IMG/VR virus record: IMGVR_UViG_3300020731_000094 | Coordinates: 1-20,758 of that record | Origin: a virus | Length of the DNA stretch: 20,758 nt | Strand: one strand, 5' to 3' | Part shown: positions 6,198 to 19,272 of the stretch, piece by piece | How positions within the stretch are numbered: the first letter of the stretch is position 1 | Layout: every line of letters begins with the position of its first letter | Position numbers and translations under genes: made by a program | The notes under the pieces: generated by a model | Databases searched by the model: none | Told to the model about the DNA's origin: nothing | The model's input: the letters and a program-made list of their open reading frames with translations, nothing else

Positions 6198-6198
<1 letters not shown>

Positions 6199-9100
6199 TA
6201 GTTAACTGTTGTAAACGCATTAGTTGGCCCAAATCTTTCTATAAATTTATCCAAACCTGTACTTCCATGTTTTAATCCAAAATAATATTGGAATGGAGTT
6301 GATAATATTTGTTTATTACCTGAATAATAATCTTGTGTTTGTGGTATTATACAACCATCCTCAATAATCCAATCTAATACATTCCAACCAGTAACACCAT
6401 CAGTTCCAGCAGGTCCATATCTCGTATATAATGTACCTCCTGTTGCAATTACTTGTCCTTGTACCAAACCAGTTCCGGTTACATACAAATATGTAAACCC
6501 CGGAAATTCTGTATTATAATCCATATGATTATCAATAAGACCATAATCAATCGTATCAAATTCCAGTACATTACTAATGATACCATTTACATTTATTGTT
6601 AAACCTGAAAATGTATTTGTTATAGGTAATAACAAATATTTATCAATTGGATGATTTGGTGCACCTGAAAATTGGTAACCATAAGTCATTCCTTGTAATG
6701 GTTGGATTTGAACATTTCCATAATCCCAAGATTGATTTACCGAATCACCAAATCCAGTTGCTTTTTTATCCCATAAATAAAAAGGTATAGGTTGAGATGA
6801 TTCTGTTAATCTACCTGGTGAATTTAAACAACCTCTTATTTTTTCACCATTTAAATTATCTAATTTAAATGTTATTGGTGTTGGTCCCCAAGATCCATTA
6901 TTAAGTTTAAAAAATTGTGGTTCAAATCTTGGTTGGATAAATTGATAATCATAACCAACGTAATATGGATTTTGTAAATCAAAAACTTCAATACCAGCTT
7001 CAGAATTTTGTGAAATTAATTGAAGTATATCACCATTTAAAGGTTCATCTGCACCAATATTAGTAAATCCACTATTAGTGAAAAAATAATCAATATCAAA
7101 ACTAATATCACTACCTAAATCTGTTAATTTTGTTTCTAATCTATAATTTATTGTCAAACCTAAAATATCACCAATATCTTGGTAAGATGTTGCACCAATT
7201 AATCTTGAGACTGAACAATTAACATCTAAACTTGGGTCACAACAAATTTCACCCATAAAAACATCTCTAGGACCTAAATCAACCATTGTAGTTGGTTTAC
7301 CTAAAAACTCAACATTTGTACCACCCTTATTTTCATTAATACCAAAATTAGTACCATCAAAAGGTGATGAACGATAATAAAACATTTGATCATTATCAGA
7401 ATATGTCACAACATTACCACAATATTTACCATGTTTTGCTTTAAATAAAAAGAAATATAAAGACCCAGATAACCAATTATCTATAAATGAATAATTAACA
7501 ATACCACCACAAAATAATTTACCAACTCTTCTTCTAACTTTATATTCAAATAATATATCAATTAAACGACCTGTTGTTTGTGTTCCCGGTACAATATAAT
7601 ATATGCCATATGAAAATTCTGAACCACCACTTTCATGAGTAATTCTACTATAATTAGGAGGTAATAAATTACCTCCTTCATTATAAATTGTTGTTGCAAC
7701 AACATCTATAATTTCATTTGATGGAGTTCCATTTGGAACTAGAACTCTAGTAAAATTATTAGTTGTACCTGTATAATATGTATTAACAATATGTGAATTA
7801 TAAGGTATATTATATAATTGACAACCTTCTTCTAATGGTATTAATGGTACTCCAGTTTTAGAAACATTATTATCATATATTGTTACAACATATGTTTCAG
7901 GGCTATATTCAAATATATTATTATTATCTTGAAAATCAATCGTATAACCAATAATTTGTGGATTAAGTGGATCGTAATCGTGATAATATATGGGTTGTGG
8001 ATTTCTAAAATATGTGGATTCCGTAAGATTTGTTGGTATTAATAAATCAGATAAATTAATAACTGTAAAAGTATTATTTGTAACACCACTAATACCTAAA
8101 CTATAACCACTTTGAATGGCATAAAAAGTTAGATAATCGGGTTGTGGTGGTGTTGTTACTTCAACAGTATCATAAGTATTTGTAATATTGTTATAAACAT
8201 ATGTTTTATATGTGTATGTTAAATTACCAATAAAAGTAGATCCGGAACATGGTGAATTAGGAAAGTCTGATGCACCTGAAAAAGTAATTGTTAACCCGGA
8301 TGATACGAAATACGATGGAGATTCTTCCGGCATCGTATAAGATGTGGAAAAAGTAAATGAACCTATCGGACAAGAATCATTAACATTTATTTCTTTTGGT
8401 GAGTTGGTTGCAGAACTTGTTGTACACTCTACACAATCGGGATATGTGACTAAATATAATTTTTTTTGTGATCCTTCTTGTACATTTCTAGCAATTCTTA
8501 AAATTGCTCTACCCACAAACCTAATTGGTCTATGATTACATGTGTTACCTAAACTATATAATGCATTTACTAATACATTAAAAAATATTAATTTTACCGA
8601 ATTAAATAACCAATCAATAAATGCCAAAACATCCGCAATCAATAATGTGAATGTATAATTTTTAATTCCAAAATTTACTGGTGGTGTATTATGTGTAGAT
8701 GAACAATCTTCCTCTTCTGCAGGTAATAATTCTTTTAACCCTAAAAAATTATCTTTTTTAAAAGTTGACCCAGGAAAAAATGAACTTTGAAATGAAGATA
8801 CTGTATAAACCTTACCGTAAGTTATTCTATAAAAATAATCTTGTGGATAATAAAAACCATCAATATTATTTAATATTAATGATTGTGAATTAGATGGGTA
8901 ACCACTATATTCTGTTGTAAAATTATAAGATTGTTGTTTTTCATTTTCATACTCTCTTATATTAGGTACTAAATAAGACCCAATAGCTCTAACCCTTTCT
9001 AAACCACCATCTTTTAAACTAAATCTAAATCTATAACATGAAGAAGTTGGTATGCCTTTATTTGGATCATTAGTATATTCTTGTTCACCAAATTCATTTG

Positions 9101-10103
9101 TATATAAAAAATCTCTGTTCATTGGAACGGGAAATGAAAAACCACCATCATCGCTAATATCTTCATGTAAATCAAAATATTCCAAAATAGGTCTATTTGA
9201 TTCATCGTTAGCATATGAAAATCTTATTGCTTCGATTTTTCCTGCTTTAGTTGTTAAATCACATTTACGACCCATTTTTTTTCTGGGTTGACAATTTTTA
9301 TTAATTGAATTTTTTCCTGTATCTGTAAATGTACCACCAATTATATATGCCTTTGGTTGTATTTTAATACCAATAGAGGATAAATCAAAATCAGTTCTTG
9401 TTATACCAATTCGACATATATCTTGATTTCCCCAAAATGGTGAAACTTGTATTGTTTTATTATATTTAAAAATTTGAGGAAGTGAATCTAAATCTTCAGA
9501 TGATTTAAATTGATATGTGTTTTTGAATTGATCGACACCTTTACCTTGTCTTATAAAATCATCGGGTCTTAATGAAAAACAACCAATATCAGATAAATCC
9601 CCATCAAAATGTATTGTTTGTTGACCTAATGGTACTCCCCATATCATAAAATCACCAGCATCATTTGTTTTAACTGTATATTTATAATATTTTTCAAATA
9701 CTTCCAAATATTCTTCACGAGTTAAAATATCTTCTTGATCCGGAAATGTTCCTGTTGGTTCATGTCCTCCATGTTGTTTTCTTGAGGGTAATAGATTATA
9801 ACGATAATTATTATCGTCTTTATCTTCTACTGTGGTATAAGGGTATAAAACTGAAATTACGGGATCATTAACATCCACATCATCTAATGGTACAAATATT
9901 GAAACTCTTATATTTGGTACACCAAATCCATTGTTTGCAGTTACTCTACCAACAACAACACCATAATCACTACAAAATGATCTATATACGTCTGTTTGAC
10001 TAATTTTTAGGGAAAGTATTTCTAATAAGTCATAAGAATTTTCCAAATTTATAGTTAAAAACTGATCTTTACCAATATTAGTTGATATTCTATACTTATT
10101 CAT
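6198..10103 (-). CDS. Giant virion structural protein (probable baseplate/tail), 1301 aa
   Basis: This is the largest gene in the window. It starts MNKYRISTNIGKDQ. Residues about 45-175 look like a carboxypeptidase-regulatory-like or transthyretin-type beta domain: GRVTANNGFGVPNIRVSIFV, then later DAGDFMIWGVPLGQQTIHFD. A Cys- and aromatic-rich region follows, and around residues 478-515 there is an unusually hydrophobic stretch (IADVLAFIDWLFNSVKLIFF). The rest is beta-rich with many S/G/T loops. Position between gp6-like and other tail genes supports a baseplate or proximal tail role; no named family is recognised. The start codon lies inside the last codons of the upstream GIY-YIG gene (8-base overlap). 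The first 30 residues have a diverged duplicate in a 37-codon fragment at 11011-11124, which suggests that the 5' end of this gene was replaced when the nuclease gene invaded. Confidence 0.75.
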
Positions 10104-10980
10104 TAATTACATATTTTTTTATTATTCGATATACAGAGTTTGGATGTAAATTTACAATTTCACTAATTTCTTTATAAGTTAGTTTATCTTTTAGTTCTCT
10201 TATTTGTTTGTGTTTTTCTATGTCAGAATTAGGTGAAAATCCATTATTAGTAGTTTCACTAAATCTTTTTAAACAATTTTTACATTTATAATTTTGTTTT
10301 TTTATGTTTTTTAAATAAACAAAACCAGCTCGTTTTAAATTAATACTTTTACAATGGGGACATTCTAATTTAAAATTGTTATTAAATTCGTGAACCCCAT
10401 ATTTTTTTTGTTTTTCTAAATCTTTATACTCCCATATAAACCCACCAAAAGTTTTACGTTCTTTTCTACAAACCATACCTATATTTGAAGAATTTTTTAA
10501 ACCTATTGTAAGTGCAGCAATTTTCATATTTTTAAATTCATTCAATTTATTTCCATTTAAATCATATTGTACTACTGGTTCACCCAGCTCTAATGATTTT
10601 TTCATTTTAGAATACGTTAATTTTGATTCTTCAGACCATTTATTTCCTAATGTAGTTCCTGCCTTTGGTGTTAAATTAAACCCATTTTTTACAGAATTAT
10701 AAGTATCAATGTAAAATTGTTCTCTTTCTATTAAAAATTTAATATCAATATTTTCTTCAATTATATAAAATCTAAAAGACTCTTCACCATGTTTATTCCA
10801 AGATCTTTGTAATTTTATGCTAGTGTGTTTTTTATTTTTTAATAAATTAAAATGAACTATTATTCTTTTTTTTAATTTAATAGTTGATCCAATATAAACT
10901 TTGTTGTTTATAATATTTTTTATCATATAAACACAATTATAACTAATAACATTAATTCTTTCTTTAAATATATATTCCAT
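10096..10980 (-). CDS. GIY-YIG homing endonuclease with NUMOD, zinc-ribbon and HTH modules
   Basis: The protein has 294 residues from the ATG at 10980; an in-frame TTG at 11004 would add eight residues and is less likely. Residues 16-103 form the GIY-YIG nuclease: CVYMI, VYIGS, Arg39 and Glu86 within LIEREQFYID. Residues 110-130 (TLGNKWSEESKLTYSKMKKS) match NUMOD3, and 136-186 (VVQYDLNGNKLNEF then FGGFIWEY) match NUMOD1. These are DNA-binding modules of phage homing endonucleases. Next comes a four-Cys zinc ribbon (C207, C210, C233, C236) like that at the start of IS1-type transposases, then a helix-turn-helix (YKEISEIVNLHPNSVYRIIK). The enzyme would nick or cut a cognate gene lacking the insert and promote its own spread. 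The gene lies between a displaced 5' gene fragment and the intact virion gene, and its stop overlaps the latter's start. Confidence 0.88.
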   Translation of the reverse strand: MEYIFKERINVISYNCVYMIKNIINNKVYIGSTIKLKKRIIVHFNLLKNKKHTSIKLQRSWNKHGEESFRFYIIEENIDIKFLIEREQFYIDTYNSVKNGFNLTPKAGTTLGNKWSEESKLTYSKMKKSLELGEPVVQYDLNGNKLNEFKNMKIAALTIGLKNSSNIGMVCRKERKTFGGFIWEYKDLEKQKKYGVHEFNNNFKLECPHCKSINLKRAGFVYLKNIKKQNYKCKNCLKRFSETTNNGFSPNSDIEKHKQIRELKDKLTYKEISEIVNLHPNSVYRIIKKYVINE

Positions 10981-11010
10981 AATTATAAATATATAAAATT
11001 TCAAAAAAAC

Positions 11011-11124
11011 CTAATGTCTGTTTAAACTTAAAATTTCAAGAATATCGAAATTTTGTTTTAGTTCTACTGTAATATTTTGATCTACACCAATATTGGTGTA
11101 AATTCTATGTTTTTGTATACCCAT
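11011..11124 (-). pseudogene. Displaced 5' fragment of the 1301-aa virion gene (37 codons)
   Basis: The ATG at 11124 opens a 37-residue frame ending at TAG (11013-11011). Its product has RIYTNIGVDQ and DILEILSL, which align with RISTNIGKDQ and DLLEILSL at the N-terminus of the 1301-aa protein; over 30 ungapped residues I count 18 identities. The homology ends where the frame closes, just before the third nuclease gene. The simplest reading is that this is the original 5' end of the virion gene, cut off by the homing endonuclease insertion, while the downstream copy got a new, diverged 5' end. Alternatives are a small functional peptide or a remnant of a paralogous gene. It keeps its own AT-rich leader directly behind gp6, so it may still be translated. 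Confidence 0.8.
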
Positions 11125-11180
11125 ATTTATATAAATAGAAAAAAATTAATTTTCTAATTTTAATATAAATAATTTTAAGA

Positions 11181-13013
11181 TCAATATGTAGTCGTTCCTA
11201 AAGTTTTTAACCTAACTTTTATATCGGTATTTGGTATTCTAATTTGAAATATTTGATTTGACTTCATAAAAATAGTCATATCTTGTTGTTGAATTTCCAT
11301 TGTTATAGAGTCAACAAAATCTTGTGCAACTTGAGATGTAGAATAATTACCACCAATTAAATTATAAACTCTAACATCAACCACATTAACCACACCATTA
11401 ACACTACCTAATTGTCTAATTAAATCACCAACAAATAATGGGTCACCCATTTTTCTTTTTGTAATATCGAAATAAGTTATTGTATCATTAATACATGTTC
11501 TAACAATATCAGTTTGATTTGAGTTTTTGTCTATTATTAAGTCAATTTGTAAACCTAAATCAATTACTTCACCACTAACAATATCCAAATAATCATTTAT
11601 CATTCTATATTCAGAAAGGTATGTTAAAATATTATTTTTTAATGTGTTTGAAACGACATCAGTTAAATTACCTAATTCATCATATGATAATAATTTAATT
11701 TGAATCTTATTATCAACTTCCATTACATTTACCTTAGCAGGAGCACCAAATGTTGATGGCATTGTTTCTATTAGTGTTTTATAATCATTTAATGTTACTG
11801 CCCTGTCTTGTGCAGCAAAATTATATGCAACCATATTTCTCATTTCTTCAACTGTTGGTTGGTCAGCACCCCCTACTGCTGGTGTTACATTTGTTACATT
11901 TAATGATTGTGTGACTTGATCATTAACACTTGAATTTGGTCCTTGTACCGCAAAGTCAATATCGTCCACACTAGTTATAACATCAACACCTAAATTAGAA
12001 TCTTTACCACCACCAATTCTATATTGAACAAATAATGTCGTTCCTACTTTTGGTGTTGCACCTAATGATAAATTATTAAGATATGAACCCAAGGAAACTC
12101 TCATATTTCCTGTCATATAATCATCTAAATTAGATAATGGGTCAACAGAACCAGAACCAAATGTTAAAGAAAAATAACCCTGTGGGGTATATTCTGTAAC
12201 AAATTTATTTGTAACAGGTAAATAAACACCAGATTTAAAATTTTGTGTATCTGATGCAGATGTTGGATCAGGTACAAATACTTTATCTTGTATCATTGTT
12301 TTAACTTCATACCATTTGTTTTGTGAAGAATAAAATTCTGATGATGTTGGGTCAGCATTAAATGATGTACCTTCCTTATGTATAACAGAAGTAACACCTA
12401 ATACATTTTGTTCAGGTAAATATAGTTTTAAAAATGGTTTTTGATCTAAATTTGTAATTACTCTTCTATAAATTTTTGTAATACCATTAACAACCGGTTC
12501 TCTTTTAGTAATAGTATATGATATTAATTTATTATTGTTATCAAAATTTGGTATCTTTAAACGATTTGATTCACCCCTATCATTAAATGGATTTGAAAAA
12601 TCAATATCATTAATTGTTTCGAATATTTGTCCACCACCAGAAACTTGTGCACCTGTTTTTAATACACCCAAATATCTACCGTCTTCTTTATCTCCTCTAA
12701 CAGGAACATTAATTGAAAAATCACATAAGGCAACTGAAGGTCTTAAACCTGGTATTCTTATTCCATATGTTTTTGCAATGTGAAATAATGATTGTGTTTG
12801 TTGTGCAAAATCCAACATTGTTTCTTGCCAAACCCTATCAATATGAAAATGTAAATTATCCGCAACTGCGGCATTTAAATCCAATAATACTGAATATATT
12901 GAAGCATCATTAGTATTACCCACTAAATTTGGGTAATAATCTGTTGTTAAGTTAACTAATTCTTGTCTTAATCCCGCAAAATCACGAACTGCGTATGATA
13001 TTTTTTTACTCAT
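11181..13013 (-). CDS. Baseplate wedge protein, gp6 / baseplate J-like
   Basis: The protein has 610 residues, close to T4 gp6 (660). It starts MSKKISYAVRDFAGLRQELV and continues with a helical N-terminal region (DASIYSVLLDLNAAVADNLH, then IDRVWQETMLDFAQQTQSLF), a pattern typical of gp6/baseplate J wedge proteins. The middle has beta strands and the region near residues 385-430 (EEMRNMVAYNFAAQDRAVTL, DYKTLIETMPSTFGAP) matches the J-like core that rings the central hub. In T4, gp6 dimerises to form the continuous inner ring of the baseplate and joins gp25, gp53 and gp7. Here it follows the gp25-like gene by three bases, the usual gp25-gp6 order. Assignment rests on pattern and context; confidence in a baseplate wedge role is high, in exact gp6 orthology somewhat lower. 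Confidence 0.82.
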   Translation of the reverse strand: MSKKISYAVRDFAGLRQELVNLTTDYYPNLVGNTNDASIYSVLLDLNAAVADNLHFHIDRVWQETMLDFAQQTQSLFHIAKTYGIRIPGLRPSVALCDFSINVPVRGDKEDGRYLGVLKTGAQVSGGGQIFETINDIDFSNPFNDRGESNRLKIPNFDNNNKLISYTITKREPVVNGITKIYRRVITNLDQKPFLKLYLPEQNVLGVTSVIHKEGTSFNADPTSSEFYSSQNKWYEVKTMIQDKVFVPDPTSASDTQNFKSGVYLPVTNKFVTEYTPQGYFSLTFGSGSVDPLSNLDDYMTGNMRVSLGSYLNNLSLGATPKVGTTLFVQYRIGGGKDSNLGVDVITSVDDIDFAVQGPNSSVNDQVTQSLNVTNVTPAVGGADQPTVEEMRNMVAYNFAAQDRAVTLNDYKTLIETMPSTFGAPAKVNVMEVDNKIQIKLLSYDELGNLTDVVSNTLKNNILTYLSEYRMINDYLDIVSGEVIDLGLQIDLIIDKNSNQTDIVRTCINDTITYFDITKRKMGDPLFVGDLIRQLGSVNGVVNVVDVRVYNLIGGNYSTSQVAQDFVDSITMEIQQQDMTIFMKSNQIFQIRIPNTDIKVRLKTLGTTTY

Positions 13014-13522: not shown

Positions 13523-14767
13523 CTAAAAAACAATAAAATTACCAATTGAGGAATGGTTATTACAAACATTAAAGTTCATAATTACATTAGTATAATCTAA
13601 TGGCTCTGTCATAGAAGCAAGGTGATTGTCATAATATCTTTTCAAAATATTAATAGCCGAATTTAAATCTCTATCTATTTCGACTTTATCACTTAATTTA
13701 ACAATTCTATCTTTTAATTCTACCTTATTCTTAAATATTTTTCCTGTTAAAGAATTAAGTTGTGTTGTATTTCTTTCATTTATCTTAATTAAATCACATT
13801 GTTTATTTTGTAATTTATATTTAAGAAATTCTAAGAACATATTAATATTAGATTCATTAAATGATTTTCTAATACTTTTTTTATTCTTATTAATACCTTC
13901 TATTGACATTAAAGATTTAATTGTTAATTCACCTACTACAATTGTTTTGTAGTTCATATTCACTAATTGTTTACTCTGAATATGTAGAGTTTCTTTTATT
14001 TGAGTATTTTTTTTAGAATATAATTTTTTCTTAACCTTATTTAGTTTATTGTAATTTTTACTTCCTTTTTCTTTTTTACTTAATTTAGATTTAATTTCAT
14101 TAATTTGTTTACCAAAATACTGATTAATCTTTTTAGCTTTATTCTTTAAGATAAATACATTACCTTTATTATCCACACCAGTTCCTAAATTTTTTAATCC
14201 CAAATCAAACGCCAATACCTTAGTATTAATTATAACATTATCATTATATGATATTGTGTCGTTAATCACAATATCACATAACCATTTATTATTATTATTA
14301 TTAAATTTAACACAAATTTGTTTAATATTTAATTCTGATACATTAGTTAGGTTAGATTTATAGTTAAATAATATTTTATTTATTTGTATTTTATTATCTT
14401 TAAATACCCAACCTGATTGGTTAAAAACTAAGGTATGATATCTTCCTAATTCTTTTTGTTTAGGCGGTTTTGCTGTATTATCTTTTTTAATTAGGGTAAA
14501 GAATGATTGATATGATTGGGAGACTTCGGTTGCAATTGTTTGTATTGCCTTTGCGTTAAGTAATTTCCATTCTGGTTTTGTTACATTTTTTAATTTTGGA
14601 AGAAGATTAATTAATTCGAATTTTGAATATATTTTTTTATTTATTTCGTAATATTTTTGTTGAATATCAATAAGAGTATTCCATACATCCATTCTAATAT
14701 TCGACAACTGGTTAAGTTGTAATATTTGTTCTTGAGTTGGAAATAATCTAATTGAGTATGTTTTCAT
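13523..14767 (-). CDS. tnpB: TnpB/OrfB-like RuvC nuclease without zinc-ribbon cysteines
   Basis: The 414-residue protein has the OrfB layout: an N-terminal HTH-like region (MKTYSIRLFPTQEQILQLNQ), a beta domain, then a split RuvC nuclease. RuvC-I is LAFDLGLKNLGTG (Asp188), RuvC-II is IVVGEL (Glu280), and RuvC-III is EIDRDLNSAINIL (Asp365/Asp367). TnpB proteins are RNA-guided DNA endonucleases of IS200/IS605-type elements. The zinc ribbon normally placed before RuvC-III (CxxCG...CxxCG) is present by alignment (residues 333-363) but every Cys is replaced: TTQLNSLTG and IVKLSDKVE. No TnpA gene, subterminal palindromes or element ends are seen, and only about 50 bases separate the stop from gp25, leaving little room for the usual right end and guide RNA. 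It may be a stand-alone, homing-type TnpB. Catalytic acids appear intact, so activity is plausible. Confidence 0.85.
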   Translation of the reverse strand: MKTYSIRLFPTQEQILQLNQLSNIRMDVWNTLIDIQQKYYEINKKIYSKFELINLLPKLKNVTKPEWKLLNAKAIQTIATEVSQSYQSFFTLIKKDNTAKPPKQKELGRYHTLVFNQSGWVFKDNKIQINKILFNYKSNLTNVSELNIKQICVKFNNNNNKWLCDIVINDTISYNDNVIINTKVLAFDLGLKNLGTGVDNKGNVFILKNKAKKINQYFGKQINEIKSKLSKKEKGSKNYNKLNKVKKKLYSKKNTQIKETLHIQSKQLVNMNYKTIVVGELTIKSLMSIEGINKNKKSIRKSFNESNINMFLEFLKYKLQNKQCDLIKINERNTTQLNSLTGKIFKNKVELKDRIVKLSDKVEIDRDLNSAINILKRYYDNHLASMTEPLDYTNVIMNFNVCNNHSSIGNFIVF

Positions 14768-14906: not shown

Positions 14907-15614
14907 TTATGAACTACAACCTATACATTCAAATATAGAATCTGTTGGTTTTGTTGTTTCAACATAATCTACTTTAGGTTTATCGGTCTTAGTTTGTTGA
15001 ATTTTTGTTGTATCTAACGCCAAGTGTTTTGCTCCCGTTGATATCGCCTTTGTTCTAACATAATAACATAATGTTTTAAGACCCCTCTCCCATGAATAAA
15101 AATGTGAAGATGAAATTTTTGATAATGTTGGGTTTGACATATATATGTTCATTGACTGAGACTGATCAATAAATGGTCCTCTATCTGCTGACATATTAAT
15201 CAATTCTTTCTGTGAAATTTCCCAAATTGTTTTATATTTTAAAATCAAATGTTCAATTCTTTGAATTTTTTTAGTATAATTCTTTTCTTCTTTATCCAAA
15301 TAATTATTAAAATTAATATTTTGAATAGAACCATCATTCATAATAATCTCATTCTTTAATTCTTCAGACCAAATACCAAGTTTTTCAAAATCATTAATCA
15401 AATATTTGTTAACAATCAATATCTCACCACCAACTACTCTTCTGTTAAATAATGCAGAGTGTGCAGGTTCTGTCATCTCAAATGAACCTGTGATTTTAGC
15501 AGAACTATTGTGACTAACACAACCATTTTCAGTTATGTAATGGTGATCATTTTCAACTTCAATATCCCATACGGGTTCTTTTAGAATTGATTTAGTAATT
15601 TTTTTTATTTTCAT
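14907..15614 (-). CDS. nrdA: NrdA piece 3: intein C-half fused to the C-terminal part of class Ia RNR large subunit
   Basis: The protein has 235 residues. Residues 1-36 are the C-terminal half of a split intein, ending GCVSHN before Ser37. Residues 37-235 are NrdA: SSAKITGSFEMTEP, NRRVVGGEILIVN, KTIWEISQKELINMSADRGPFIDQ and SFYSWERGLKT-type sequence closely follow eukaryotic RRM1. Tyr184-Tyr185 (LCYYVRT) match the radical-transfer tyrosines Y730-Y731 of E. coli NrdA. The C-terminus FECIGCSS carries the flexible-tail Cys pair (C230, C233) that re-reduces the active site. A native start at 15614 inside the end of the upstream endonuclease gene (23-base overlap), rather than a continuous frame, shows that it is made as a separate polypeptide. 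It should be joined to piece 2 by protein trans-splicing. A terminator follows the stop. Confidence 0.93.
   Translation of the reverse strand: MKIKKITKSILKEPVWDIEVENDHHYITENGCVSHNSSAKITGSFEMTEPAHSALFNRRVVGGEILIVNKYLINDFEKLGIWSEELKNEIIMNDGSIQNINFNNYLDKEEKNYTKKIQRIEHLILKYKTIWEISQKELINMSADRGPFIDQSQSMNIYMSNPTLSKISSSHFYSWERGLKTLCYYVRTKAISTGAKHLALDTTKIQQTKTDKPKVDYVETTKPTDSIFECIGCSS
15507..15614 (-). other. Split intein 2, C-terminal half (36 aa)
   Basis: Residues 1-36 of NrdA piece 3. The start is basic (MKIKKITKSILKEP), block F reads VWDIEVENDHHYITENGCV, and block G is SHN followed by Ser as the +1 nucleophile. His-Asn at the end is the canonical cyclising pair. It pairs with the acidic N-half at 17139-17483. 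Length and position after a native ATG match natural split inteins. Confidence 0.92.
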
Positions 15615-17076
15615 AATTTATACCTTTTTTATTTAAAAAATTTTTTAATTTTTCTTCATTAAAATAAAACCCATCTTCTTCCCATAATATTAAAACTTCA
15701 AAACCATTATTTATTGCAATATTAATTTTTTCTTTATCTTTATTTATTACTTTAATTGGGTCAACAATTTTATTTTTGAATTTTTTTATTGATTCGTTAA
15801 TCTCATGTTTCTCCCAATTAGGATGCCAATAACTACCATTATATTCTATAATTATTTTTTTGTTTTTTAAGGTAAAATCATAGAAATAAATGTTTTTTTT
15901 ATCTTTAATAAAATATTCTTTATTATTTTCCACACCTAAATAAACATCGTCATAATTATTTTCAATTAAAAAATCATATAATGGTTTAAAATGTCTTAAA
16001 CTACTTTTACTTGCCTTTAAGATTTTAACAAATAATTTTTCTTTAGTCTCTTGATATTTTTTAAAACCTTTTTCGTAATCGTTTTCTTTTTTAATAAAAT
16101 AACCTAAAGATTTATTATCCGATAATTTACATTTTTCTTTATACAATAATTCACCATTTTCGTCATACTTTTTTTTAAAAAAATCCAAACTATTAGAATC
16201 TTTTTTTTGATTTTTAATTTTATACTCTTTTAAACTTTTTTCTAAATCGTCATATTTTTTTAAAAAATAATTTAAACTTGAATTGTCTTTTTTAAGATTA
16301 TTTTCGATATATTTTTCAATGTATATATTGTCACCATATTTTTTTTTGAAAAAATTTAAATTAATTGTTGTTTTTTTATTTTTTTCATCAAATATTTGTT
16401 TTGATTTTTCAACATCTCCATTTGATTTTTTCAACGCCCAAGAAAGGGATGATGAATCTTTTTTAATGTAATTTTCCCATTTTTCTAACCATTCACTTCC
16501 ATATCTTATTTTAAAATTTTCTATAGTGTTTTTACTTTTATTAACATAATCGTCATATTTCTGAATACCTTCTTTTTCGCCGTATTTTTTTATAAAATTA
16601 ATTTTAGTAGTTGATTTTTTAGTTTTATAAGAAAATATTTTTTCCAAAGCTTCTTCTTCAGTAAATCCTAGATTAATATAATAATTTTTATCATAGTATT
16701 TTGAAAATTGTTTTTGATTATTTTTAAATTTTTCATTGCCAATTTCATCTCCATACATTAAACATAAAAATGTTTTACTGTTAGAATCATTTAAATTCAT
16801 CATTTTATAATTTAAAAATTTAACCATTCTATCAATATCGATATTTGTTTTATTATTTTCAATGTATTTTATAACACTTCTAATTTGTTTTTTGTTTTTA
16901 ATAAAAATATCAATTATTTCAAATGGTTTAATTTTTTCATCGCTAATTTCTAATATTTTAAATAAAAAACTTTCATCTCCATTAATTTTTATAACGTTTT
17001 CATCTAAATTTAACATAAAAAAAATAATACTGTTTTTAGTTTTAATTTTGGTATTGTTGAAAAATAACATATTCAT
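15592..17076 (-). CDS. Vsr-like (EDxHD-type) homing endonuclease with N-terminal repeat array
   Basis: The 494-residue protein sits between the two halves of split intein 2. The C-terminal domain (about 355-480) has FYDFTLKNKKIIIEYNG followed by SYWHPN, then a helix and GFEVLILWEED. Asp400, Glu411 and His418 in this spacing resemble the Vsr-like homing endonucleases found within split-intein genes (the I-Bth0305I group). Residues 157-346 hold seven related units of about 25 residues with the core SLxxFxKKYG-x-xxEKxxxY, probably a DNA-recognition array. The protein is very Lys/Asn-rich. It presumably cuts nrdA alleles lacking the insert. The stop overlaps the start of NrdA piece 3 by 23 bases. 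The ATG at 17076 is supported by an upstream AT element; Met21 is a possible alternative. Confidence 0.8.
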   Translation of the reverse strand: MNMLFFNNTKIKTKNSIIFFMLNLDENVIKINGDESFLFKILEISDEKIKPFEIIDIFIKNKKQIRSVIKYIENNKTNIDIDRMVKFLNYKMMNLNDSNSKTFLCLMYGDEIGNEKFKNNQKQFSKYYDKNYYINLGFTEEEALEKIFSYKTKKSTTKINFIKKYGEKEGIQKYDDYVNKSKNTIENFKIRYGSEWLEKWENYIKKDSSSLSWALKKSNGDVEKSKQIFDEKNKKTTINLNFFKKKYGDNIYIEKYIENNLKKDNSSLNYFLKKYDDLEKSLKEYKIKNQKKDSNSLDFFKKKYDENGELLYKEKCKLSDNKSLGYFIKKENDYEKGFKKYQETKEKLFVKILKASKSSLRHFKPLYDFLIENNYDDVYLGVENNKEYFIKDKKNIYFYDFTLKNKKIIIEYNGSYWHPNWEKHEINESIKKFKNKIVDPIKVINKDKEKINIAINNGFEVLILWEEDGFYFNEEKLKNFLNKKGINYENKKNY

Positions 17077-17135: not shown

Positions 17136-18116
17136 TTATTCGTTTATATTAATTATGTCATCATTTTCATTTAAATCTTTAACTTTAACCCATATGTTTT
17201 CATTATTTCTATTAATTAAAAATTTATGTTCCGGACTACATTTAAAAATAGTACCGTCTTCCATTTCTATATTAATAATTTCAGAGTAACCGTTGTAATA
17301 AATTTTATCCGATATTGAATATCCATTTAAGGTTTTTATTAAAATTGGAGTTTTAAAATTATACCAAACACCACCATTTTCATTTTTTTCAATGTTATCA
17401 ACATCTATATCATTTAATTCACAAATCTCTTTAAAACTTAAAACACCCTTTTCAGTTATTACCTTTGTATCAGATGTTTGACAAGCAACTGGCATTTGTG
17501 CCGTAACTAAACTATTACAAACACCATATGTTTTAACATCTTCTTTCAATGTATCCCAATCCCATAAACCTGATAGTTCAACATTATCCCACATATCAAA
17601 TTGGAATATACCTTTTGACATTGGTGAACCATCAAATCCTTCATAATTCAAATATCTACCAGTTTTACAAAGATCATTACTTTCAGTAATTGCCGCAAAA
17701 TATATTGTTTCAAATATTTGTTTATTTAATTTTTTTGCCTCCTCTGATGTGAAAATATAATCTAACAAATAAAATACATCTGCTAATCCTTGAGTACCAA
17801 TTGCAATTGCTCTTTGTTCTAATCCACCCTTTCTACCTTTTTGAGTAGAATAACTATTGATATCAATTACTTTATTAAGTGCATTAACTACTTTCCTTAC
17901 TTCTTTATACAATAGTTGGAAATCAAATTTACCATCAACAATAAAGTTCTTTAAGACAATGGAAGATAATGTACAGATTGCAGTTGTTTCAGAATCAGTA
18001 TATTGATAAATCTCACAATTATGTACCAATATATCATTACCATAAAAACATTCCGTTTCTGGTACTTGTATATCATATACGTCTTCTTTTTTAATTAATT
18101 TATTTATTTTTATCAT
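17136..18116 (-). CDS. nrdA: NrdA piece 2: intein C-half, central RNR segment, intein N-half
   Basis: The protein has 326 residues in three parts. Residues 1-33 are the C-half of split intein 1, ending LVHN before Cys34. Residues 34-211 are the central NrdA segment: CEIYQYTDSETTAICTLSS (Glu35 matches E. coli E441, and Cys48 matches C462, one of the substrate-reducing cysteines), RAIAIGTQGLADVFYLLDY, LNKQIFETIYFAA, GSPMSKGIFQFDMWD and NSLVTAQMPVA. Residues 212-326 are the N-half of split intein 2, starting with Cys (CQTSDTKVITEKG). The piece is therefore trimmed at both ends by trans-splicing. It has its own ATG, overlapping the end of the upstream GIY-YIG gene by 17 bases, and ends before a 59-base gap. 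Alone it cannot be active because the catalytic Cys and the tyrosyl relay are on the other pieces. Confidence 0.94.
   Translation of the reverse strand: MIKINKLIKKEDVYDIQVPETECFYGNDILVHNCEIYQYTDSETTAICTLSSIVLKNFIVDGKFDFQLLYKEVRKVVNALNKVIDINSYSTQKGRKGGLEQRAIAIGTQGLADVFYLLDYIFTSEEAKKLNKQIFETIYFAAITESNDLCKTGRYLNYEGFDGSPMSKGIFQFDMWDNVELSGLWDWDTLKEDVKTYGVCNSLVTAQMPVACQTSDTKVITEKGVLSFKEICELNDIDVDNIEKNENGGVWYNFKTPILIKTLNGYSISDKIYYNGYSEIINIEMEDGTIFKCSPEHKFLINRNNENIWVKVKDLNENDDIININE
17139..17483 (-). other. Split intein 2, N-terminal half (115 aa)
   Basis: This half starts at Cys1 (codon 17483-17481) directly after TAQMPVA. Block A is CQTSDTKVITEKG. Block B is EDGTIFKCSPEHKFL, with S-P-E-H in place of the usual T-x-x-H. 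The C-terminal tail is acidic (VKDLNENDDIININE), complementary to the basic start of the C-half at 15614. The stop codon ends the half, so no endonuclease domain is fused. Confidence 0.92.
18018..18116 (-). other. Split intein 1, C-terminal half (33 aa)
   Basis: Residues 1-33 of NrdA piece 2. The start is basic (MIKINKLIKKED), block F reads VYDIQVPETECFYGNDI, and block G is LVHN followed by Cys at +1. All canonical residues for cyclisation and splicing are present. It pairs with the N-half at 19318-19623. Confidence 0.93.
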
Positions 18117-19272
18117 TTTTTAAATATTCAAATTTATATTTTTTATAAGTGTTTCTTTTACCTTTACATACAGATACTATTGCTGAAATATTACCATTTT
18201 CAATGCTTTTAGATGCCTCTGTCGCGCTTTGAAATACTGTTCTGTTACCATTGGAATCTATTTTAACAACAGATTTTTTTACCCCTTTAGGTATTTCAAT
18301 TTTATATTCGCTATTTTCATATCTAAATATGTTATCATAACTAGTATTTTTTTTACATTTCCTACGAATAACCTCAACACAAAATCCATGTTCTTTGGAC
18401 GCTTCGGAGGTGTTTTTATACTCAACTTCAACAGTGTCGTTTATGTTTTTTTTAAAAAAAACTTTTTTGTTAATTTTTTCTTTTATTTTAGGTTTAATAT
18501 AGTCATTTCTAAAAGATTTTAAAATAACTAAATCTTTATTTTCAAATTTCCAATGGTAATTTTTATGTGTTCCCCCATTTTTTAAACATGAATAAAGTCT
18601 AGACGGTGTTAATTTATATTTTTCAATTGCTGAGATTGTTGTTAATCTATCTAAAATTTCTTTTGTATTAATATCTATCATTTCAACAATTGGTAATTTT
18701 TCTTTTCTAGTTTTAATTATTTTTCGTTTAGTCTCATCGCTCATTATTTTACCTTTATTCCAATGATTATTGTTTATTTTACGTAAATGGCTAAAATTTT
18801 CTTCAATTGGCCTTTTAAAATTTGGATTTTTTTCTCCTGACCAATTTTTTGACAAAATTTTATTTATTTTATCTTTCTTATCGGGAATAAATTTTAAAAT
18901 ATCACCTCCTGTTCCACCATCAGTTATATTTGTTAAAATACCTCCATCAATACTTTTACCGTAAAATTTTATTAATTCACGTTCAATATTCAAAACTAAA
19001 TTTTCATCTTCACTTTCGTAAACAATTATATAATTTGGTTCATAATTGTTTTCTTTTAATAATTTTACAGTTCTGCATTTATTGGGATTAACATCCCCAT
19101 CGCATGATATCGGATTTTTAACATAATGGAACAAATGTCTTTTTATTTTATTTTTAGTTTCATGTAATCCCTTTCCAACATAAAACGGTTTGAAAGTGAT
19201 TCCAGAATAATATGGATTATCATAATTACCTGGAAATCTATCATCCAATAAAACATACACATAATAATTCAT
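18100..19272 (-). CDS. GIY-YIG homing endonuclease inside split intein 1
   Basis: The 390-residue protein lies between the two halves of split intein 1. The nuclease domain spans residues 1-118: YVYVL, PFYVGKG (29-35), Arg45, Glu98 in IERELIKFYG, and LTNITDGG. This is the YVGKG variety of GIY-YIG. Residues 145-190 hold NUMOD3-like segments (NWSGEKNPNF, HWNKGKIMSDETKRKI). Three NUMOD1-like DNA-binding repeats follow at about 195-243, 281-318 and 335-384, each with a hydrophobic helix such as ATEASKSI and a closing aromatic strand such as KKYKFEYL. The enzyme presumably targets uninterrupted nrdA near the catalytic Cys codon. The start is 42 bases after the stop of NrdA piece 1; the stop overlaps the start of piece 2 by 17 bases, consistent with translational coupling. 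Confidence 0.9.
   Translation of the reverse strand: MNYYVYVLLDDRFPGNYDNPYYSGITFKPFYVGKGLHETKNKIKRHLFHYVKNPISCDGDVNPNKCRTVKLLKENNYEPNYIIVYESEDENLVLNIERELIKFYGKSIDGGILTNITDGGTGGDILKFIPDKKDKINKILSKNWSGEKNPNFKRPIEENFSHLRKINNNHWNKGKIMSDETKRKIIKTRKEKLPIVEMIDINTKEILDRLTTISAIEKYKLTPSRLYSCLKNGGTHKNYHWKFENKDLVILKSFRNDYIKPKIKEKINKKVFFKKNINDTVEVEYKNTSEASKEHGFCVEVIRRKCKKNTSYDNIFRYENSEYKIEIPKGVKKSVVKIDSNGNRTVFQSATEASKSIENGNISAIVSVCKGKRNTYKKYKFEYLKNDKNK

Follow-up and report, generated by a model that had tools for sequence, protein, structure and literature searches.

How does a phage come to carry the 5' end of a virion gene twice, once in a complete gene and once as a fragment on the far side of a homing endonuclease gene? 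The question is raised by the window analyzed here, the whole 20,758-nt stretch of IMG/VR record IMGVR_UViG_3300020731_000094, where the genes concerned lie on the minus strand in the order gp25-like gene, gp6-like gene, 56-nt spacer, 37-codon frame, 30-nt gap, GIY-YIG gene and a gene for a 1301-aa protein. Most likely, the locus records a single imperfect DNA repair after the nuclease attacked a related phage, which would make it a particularly clear variant of a known process.

A complete virion gene and a second copy of its 5' end

The gene for the 1301-aa protein (6198..10103, minus strand) is complete, with its own start, and mosaic downstream. The label of its product as a virion (baseplate-region) protein is putative and derives from its position beside the gp25 and gp6 genes. 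No family match was found for the protein, a search against INPHARED gave no match, a scan of genome contigs for relatives found none, and the structure predicted for residues 1-300 (pLDDT 78) had no confident match in the PDB. The left flank is formed by the baseplate wedge gp6-like gene (11181..13013), followed by the native spacer between the gp6-like and virion genes (11125..11180). The spacer contains a promoter-like block, TTTCTATTTATATA, that is conserved before the virion gene in relatives, and a TTTCTATTTAT block was found in most relatives.

The 37-codon frame (11011..11124, minus strand) translates to MGIQKHRIYTNIGVDQNITVELKQNFDILEILSLNRH*. The sequence-only reading had proposed that it is homologous to the N-terminus of the virion protein, which was confirmed by alignment with residues 2-33 of the 1301-aa product (18/32 identical; tblastn within the record, E 5.1e-6). 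A profile of native 5' ends built from relatives scored both the fragment (E 3.4e-20, 66.6 bits) and the present N-terminus (E 4.8e-19, 62.9 bits), and no other frame in the window. The resemblance goes beyond chance because the fragment starts ~57 nt past the gp6-like gene, the position where the 5' ends of relatives begin. Native position, spacer and leader have all been kept by the fragment, with the native leader held in place. The nearest DNA is that of the native 5' ends at loci L103, L108 and L115 (77-79% identity), with which the fragment was also placed in a DNA tree (support 0.81). Together with its extent, which covers native codons 1-33 and, as a trace, reaches about codon 38, these features support the earlier suggestion that it is a native-type 5' end displaced from the virion gene. 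The fragment has an in-frame stop, and an internal deletion of 11 nt between two AAA runs would explain its shifted frame. At its end lies AAACAGACATT (11013..11023), which probably marks the break region. A word shared with the virion gene had been reported here, just before the codons QTDV, and such a word is indeed present, but it is longer than claimed: 11 nt are identical to the codons QTDI of L087, a match equaled by 16 of 5000 shuffles.

Exactly between the fragment and the virion gene, also as first read, lies an intact gene for a 294-aa GIY-YIG homing endonuclease (10096..10980, minus strand; ATG at 10980, stop at 10096), the stop of which overlaps the virion ATG by 8 nt (ATGAATAA). 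Its nuclease domain was recognized both as PF01541 (E 2.8e-13) and as I-TevI-like (E 1.2e-16), and its DNA-binding modules comprise a weak NUMOD1, an IS1-type zinc-binding domain and a helix-turn-helix (HTH_23). The tail of the protein, with its IS1/IS1595-type zinc-binding domain and helix-turn-helix, also matched NF033558 (E 5.5e-9) and resembles a transposase-like DNA-binding tail. The nuclease gene is preceded by a short, A+T-rich leader (10981..11010) with its own TATTTATA; when the leader was compared with the L087 spacer, the likeness was not significant (equaled in 258/1000 shuffles).

A nuclease gene between two pieces of one gene, with a domain that matches group I intron endonucleases, could be read as intron-encoded, with the fragment as a first exon. 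However, the stop within the fragment and the completeness of the downstream gene argue against split exons, and Rfam shows no intron match that would indicate an RNA core (the matches that it gave in the window were below threshold and meaningless). We therefore regard an intron as extremely improbable, in agreement with the view that this is no ordinary intron.

A scan for TATTTATA found it ahead of the fragment, of the nuclease gene and of each of the stand-alone genes at 14767, 17076 and 19272, in every case at a distance of 11-22 nt. None was found before the virion gene, which therefore probably depends on read-through and the stop-start overlap. The stand-alone genes belong to a region with features of its own. 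The large subunit of ribonucleotide reductase (20757-14907) is encoded in three pieces that end or start in intein-splicing domains, so that it looks twice fractured with split inteins, and the gaps hold stand-alone endonuclease-like genes (GIY-YIG-like, 18100-19272; Vsr-like, 15592-17076). Between these pieces and the baseplate genes lies a TnpB-family gene (13523-14767; NF040570, E 1.1e-41), likewise preceded by TATTTATA.

One insertion lineage and two types of 5' end

A first scan of viral contigs with residues 1-267 as query returned 80 loci, and further scans raised this to 277 loci with this 5' end, a number in which some contigs were fetched more than once. At every locus of the 80-locus set except the sister contig L001, gp6 (where the contig reaches) is followed by ~57 nt and one intact gene, which typically starts QKHRISTNIG.... 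Among the 277 loci, two copies of the 5' end or a nuclease in the gap were found only in the window record and in one 162-kb contig of its lineage, 3300000439_000004. By sequence comparison, the insertion thus appears clearly confined to this one lineage. Searches of viral contigs for relatives of the nuclease returned the sister contig and three weak matches, and no donor; DNA-pattern searches for each 5' end found no intermediate, and a gp6 search for further clade members found none. Two-copy matches in the L136/L143 clade were rejected as duplicates because the second copy was a weak domain within a single ORF (E 9.6 to 170), and the gap genes of L125, L126 and L137 encode unrelated small proteins. 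In that distant clade (L125, L126, L137, L160 and L164), the gap between the gp6-like and virion genes holds a conserved gene for a small, membrane-like protein with a cysteine start of the MGCNCK type.

The same survey bears on the possibility that fragment and virion gene are old paralogues, one small and conserved and the other large, with related N-termini. In favor of this, the fragment is an open frame, and the two positions at which it differs between the records are third codon positions with synonymous changes, so that the translation is the same. Yet the small gene occurs at no other locus, and spacing and leader mark the place as a native gene start. A relative with both genes and no nuclease, named in the sequence-only reading as the case that would speak for such a pair, was not found; the survey contradicts the pair, which we consider highly improbable.

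The closest nuclease-free relatives are L087 and L088, with a gp6-like gene 93% identical to that of the window (other relatives, at most 78%). They carry neither fragment nor nuclease and have the native start MELQKHRISTNIGKDQFLTINLENSYDLLEILSLK. Over codons 6-33, L087 is identical to the present N-terminus (within codons 1-50, 9954..10103) at 80/84 nt and to the fragment at 48/84, and the present N-terminus groups with L087 in the DNA tree (support 0.95). Judged from these alignments, the virion gene now begins with an ordinary 5' end of its clade and not with a purpose-made cassette; the proposed special, diverged replacement segment carried by the insert therefore turns out to be an ordinary clade allele. 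The related prediction that native 5' ends should resemble the fragment more closely held for most relatives, by the slight margin in the profile scores given above, but failed for the closest, L087 and L088. We consider it supported that the nuclease gene arrived together with, or beside, a second 5' end.

Breakpoints and the probable course of the insertion

Four breakpoints were located. At the start codon, L087-type spacer passes into the fragment (breakpoint 1); at AAACAGACATT, the fragment passes into the nuclease leader (breakpoint 2); at codon 5-6, the nuclease end meets L087-type sequence (breakpoint 3); and near codon 50, this sequence is followed by a gene body only ~71-74% like L087 (breakpoint 4). 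Codons 33-39, beside the AAACAGAC word, hold a cluster of differences between the present gene and L087, as would fit a nuclease-bearing allele with an altered target.

Two further patterns of variation were observed. Within the virion gene (6198-10103; L001 and L081 compared), the window and the sister contig are near-identical to codon ~239 and then strongly diverged, a cassette exchange in the virion protein. Between the two records, 11068-10110 holds 14 differences in the fragment and nuclease gene, against 2 in the 1833 nt of gp6 and none in codons 1-33; this excess suggests that older or exchanged sequence forms a patch here.

The course of events that we favor, with a probability of roughly 0.6, resembles intronless homing with a botched left junction and a co-converted donor gene. 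The donor would have been an L087-type phage with a free-standing GIY-YIG gene directly upstream of its virion gene, stop overlapping start. During a mixed infection, the nuclease would have helped to break the virion gene of a related phage that carried the fragment-type allele, the break lying close to codon 38 and next to CAAACAGAC. Illegitimate joining would then have linked the left broken end to the DNA directly before the nuclease gene, with no homology repair on that side, and the right side would have come from the donor as a complete virion gene with the donor 5' end. The product would consist of a stub made up of the first ~33-38 codons of the recipient gene, the nuclease gene and a complete virion gene, and one illegitimate join at breakpoint 2 would be the simplest event to form it. 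We observe the anatomy, its uniqueness among the loci compared, the alleles and the breakpoints; the cut, its site, the direction of transfer and the mode of expression we infer.

This homing-like event is supported because relatives have gp6, the ~57-nt spacer, one intact gene and no nuclease; because the fragment, which keeps its native position and leader, ends within codons 33-39, where the present gene differs from L087; because the two 5' ends are of two types (L087-type for the present one, with tree support 0.95, and L108/L115/L103-type for the fragment, with 0.81); and because nuclease gene and virion start are both complete and Rfam shows no intron match. Against it, the gp6 gene that precedes the fragment is L087-type as well (93%), which calls for one more crossover at the start of the gene, and the AAACAGACATT match is modest (~0.3% of shuffles). 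Phages that carry the nuclease before an L087-type gene but lack the fragment were not found, nor were any that combine a fragment-type allele with the gene body of the window.

In the opposite history, the L087-like 5' end would have been resident and a foreign block of fragment plus nuclease would have been inserted at about codon 6, with the left crossover in the conserved start region and the right junction at the nuclease stop codon. The gp6 gene (93% aa), the spacer (~90%) and present codons 6-50 (80/84 nt) are all L087-like, as if L087-type sequence had been split at about codon 6, and the N-terminal identity to L087 (0.97) is the value predicted from gp6 identity. However, this history requires an earlier phage with a fragment-type gene interrupted at codon ~33-38 and lacking a working gene, as well as a separate crossover at about codon 50, since the gene body is only ~71% like L087. 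It needs as many crossovers as the homing-like event. A linkage test of the 5' end against gene body and gp6 in 93 natives did not decide the direction of transfer. We rank the opposite history below the homing-like event because of the prior phage with an already interrupted virion gene that it requires, and consider it possible though rather unlikely.

Comparison with known homing systems

The layout had been likened to mitochondrial mobile ORFs, for which gene hybrids are described in fungi (Allomyces atp6; Glomus atp6, atp9, cox2 and nad3; PMC3630166). As in these hybrids, an endonuclease ORF lies beside a gene whose end occurs twice around it, as a displaced native copy and a copy that completes the gene. 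In the fungal hybrids the duplicated end is the 3' one, the closest relative resembles the displaced copy and the working copy is foreign, whereas in this phage the duplication affects the 5' end, and the nearest relative is matched by the working copy (L087, 80/84 vs 48/84). Several independent cases are known from Glomus (PMC3630166), whereas independent insertions of a nuclease with a new 5' end were not found here, where one lineage carries the arrangement. A true phage counterpart, with a nuclease inside an essential virion gene regularly bringing a cleavage-resistant 5' end and leaving the old end as a stub, is unlikely. That nuclease and recoded 5' end form a dedicated unit, inserting repeatedly at codon ~36-38 of virion genes, would follow the logic and layout of the mitochondrial hybrids transposed to the 5' end (PMC3630166), but with one insertion lineage among 277 loci and a 5' end that is the ordinary L087/L088 one, not specially recoded, we consider it very unlikely.

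Phage systems also offer parallels. In Aeromonas phage Aeh1, mobE lies between two pieces of the essential gene nrdA (PMC2988022); there both pieces are needed and assemble, whereas here the downstream gene is complete. The HNH gene 51 of mycobacteriophage Omega was inserted with an imprecise junction, a loss of 35 bp and a new 3' end for lysin A, for which the authors suggest either mistakes in repair or a donor whose context was distantly related (PMC3706429). It provides a phage precedent for an imprecise nuclease insertion that alters the end of a neighboring gene, with loss at the 3' end in contrast to the 5'-end duplication seen here.

Based on its sequence features, the element is best filed with the free-standing phage homing endonucleases, with an aberrant insertion; it works in the manner of the mobile ORFs but is not assigned to their group. 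It has an intact nuclease domain and DNA-binding modules, lies outside any intron or intein beside an uninterrupted virion gene, and is optional, being absent at the same site in close relatives. The free-standing T4-type endonucleases SegF, SegG and MobE, which act in intronless homing, show the same layout, an intergenic GIY-YIG gene by an essential gene, with overlapped neighbors, a likely target in the gene next to it and co-converted flanks (PMC2988022). Normal events of this kind replace the flanks cleanly, whereas here the 5' stub of the recipient stays on the far side of the nuclease. The locus would be a readable scar of how a phage gained a nuclease gene beside a virion gene by imperfect repair and did not lose that gene, with both parental 5' ends and the nuclease identifiable and empty sites known. 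It would show in concrete terms how homing genes generate mosaics of alleles where virion genes begin, and would mirror, in a phage and at the 5' end, the fungal mitochondrial hybrids.
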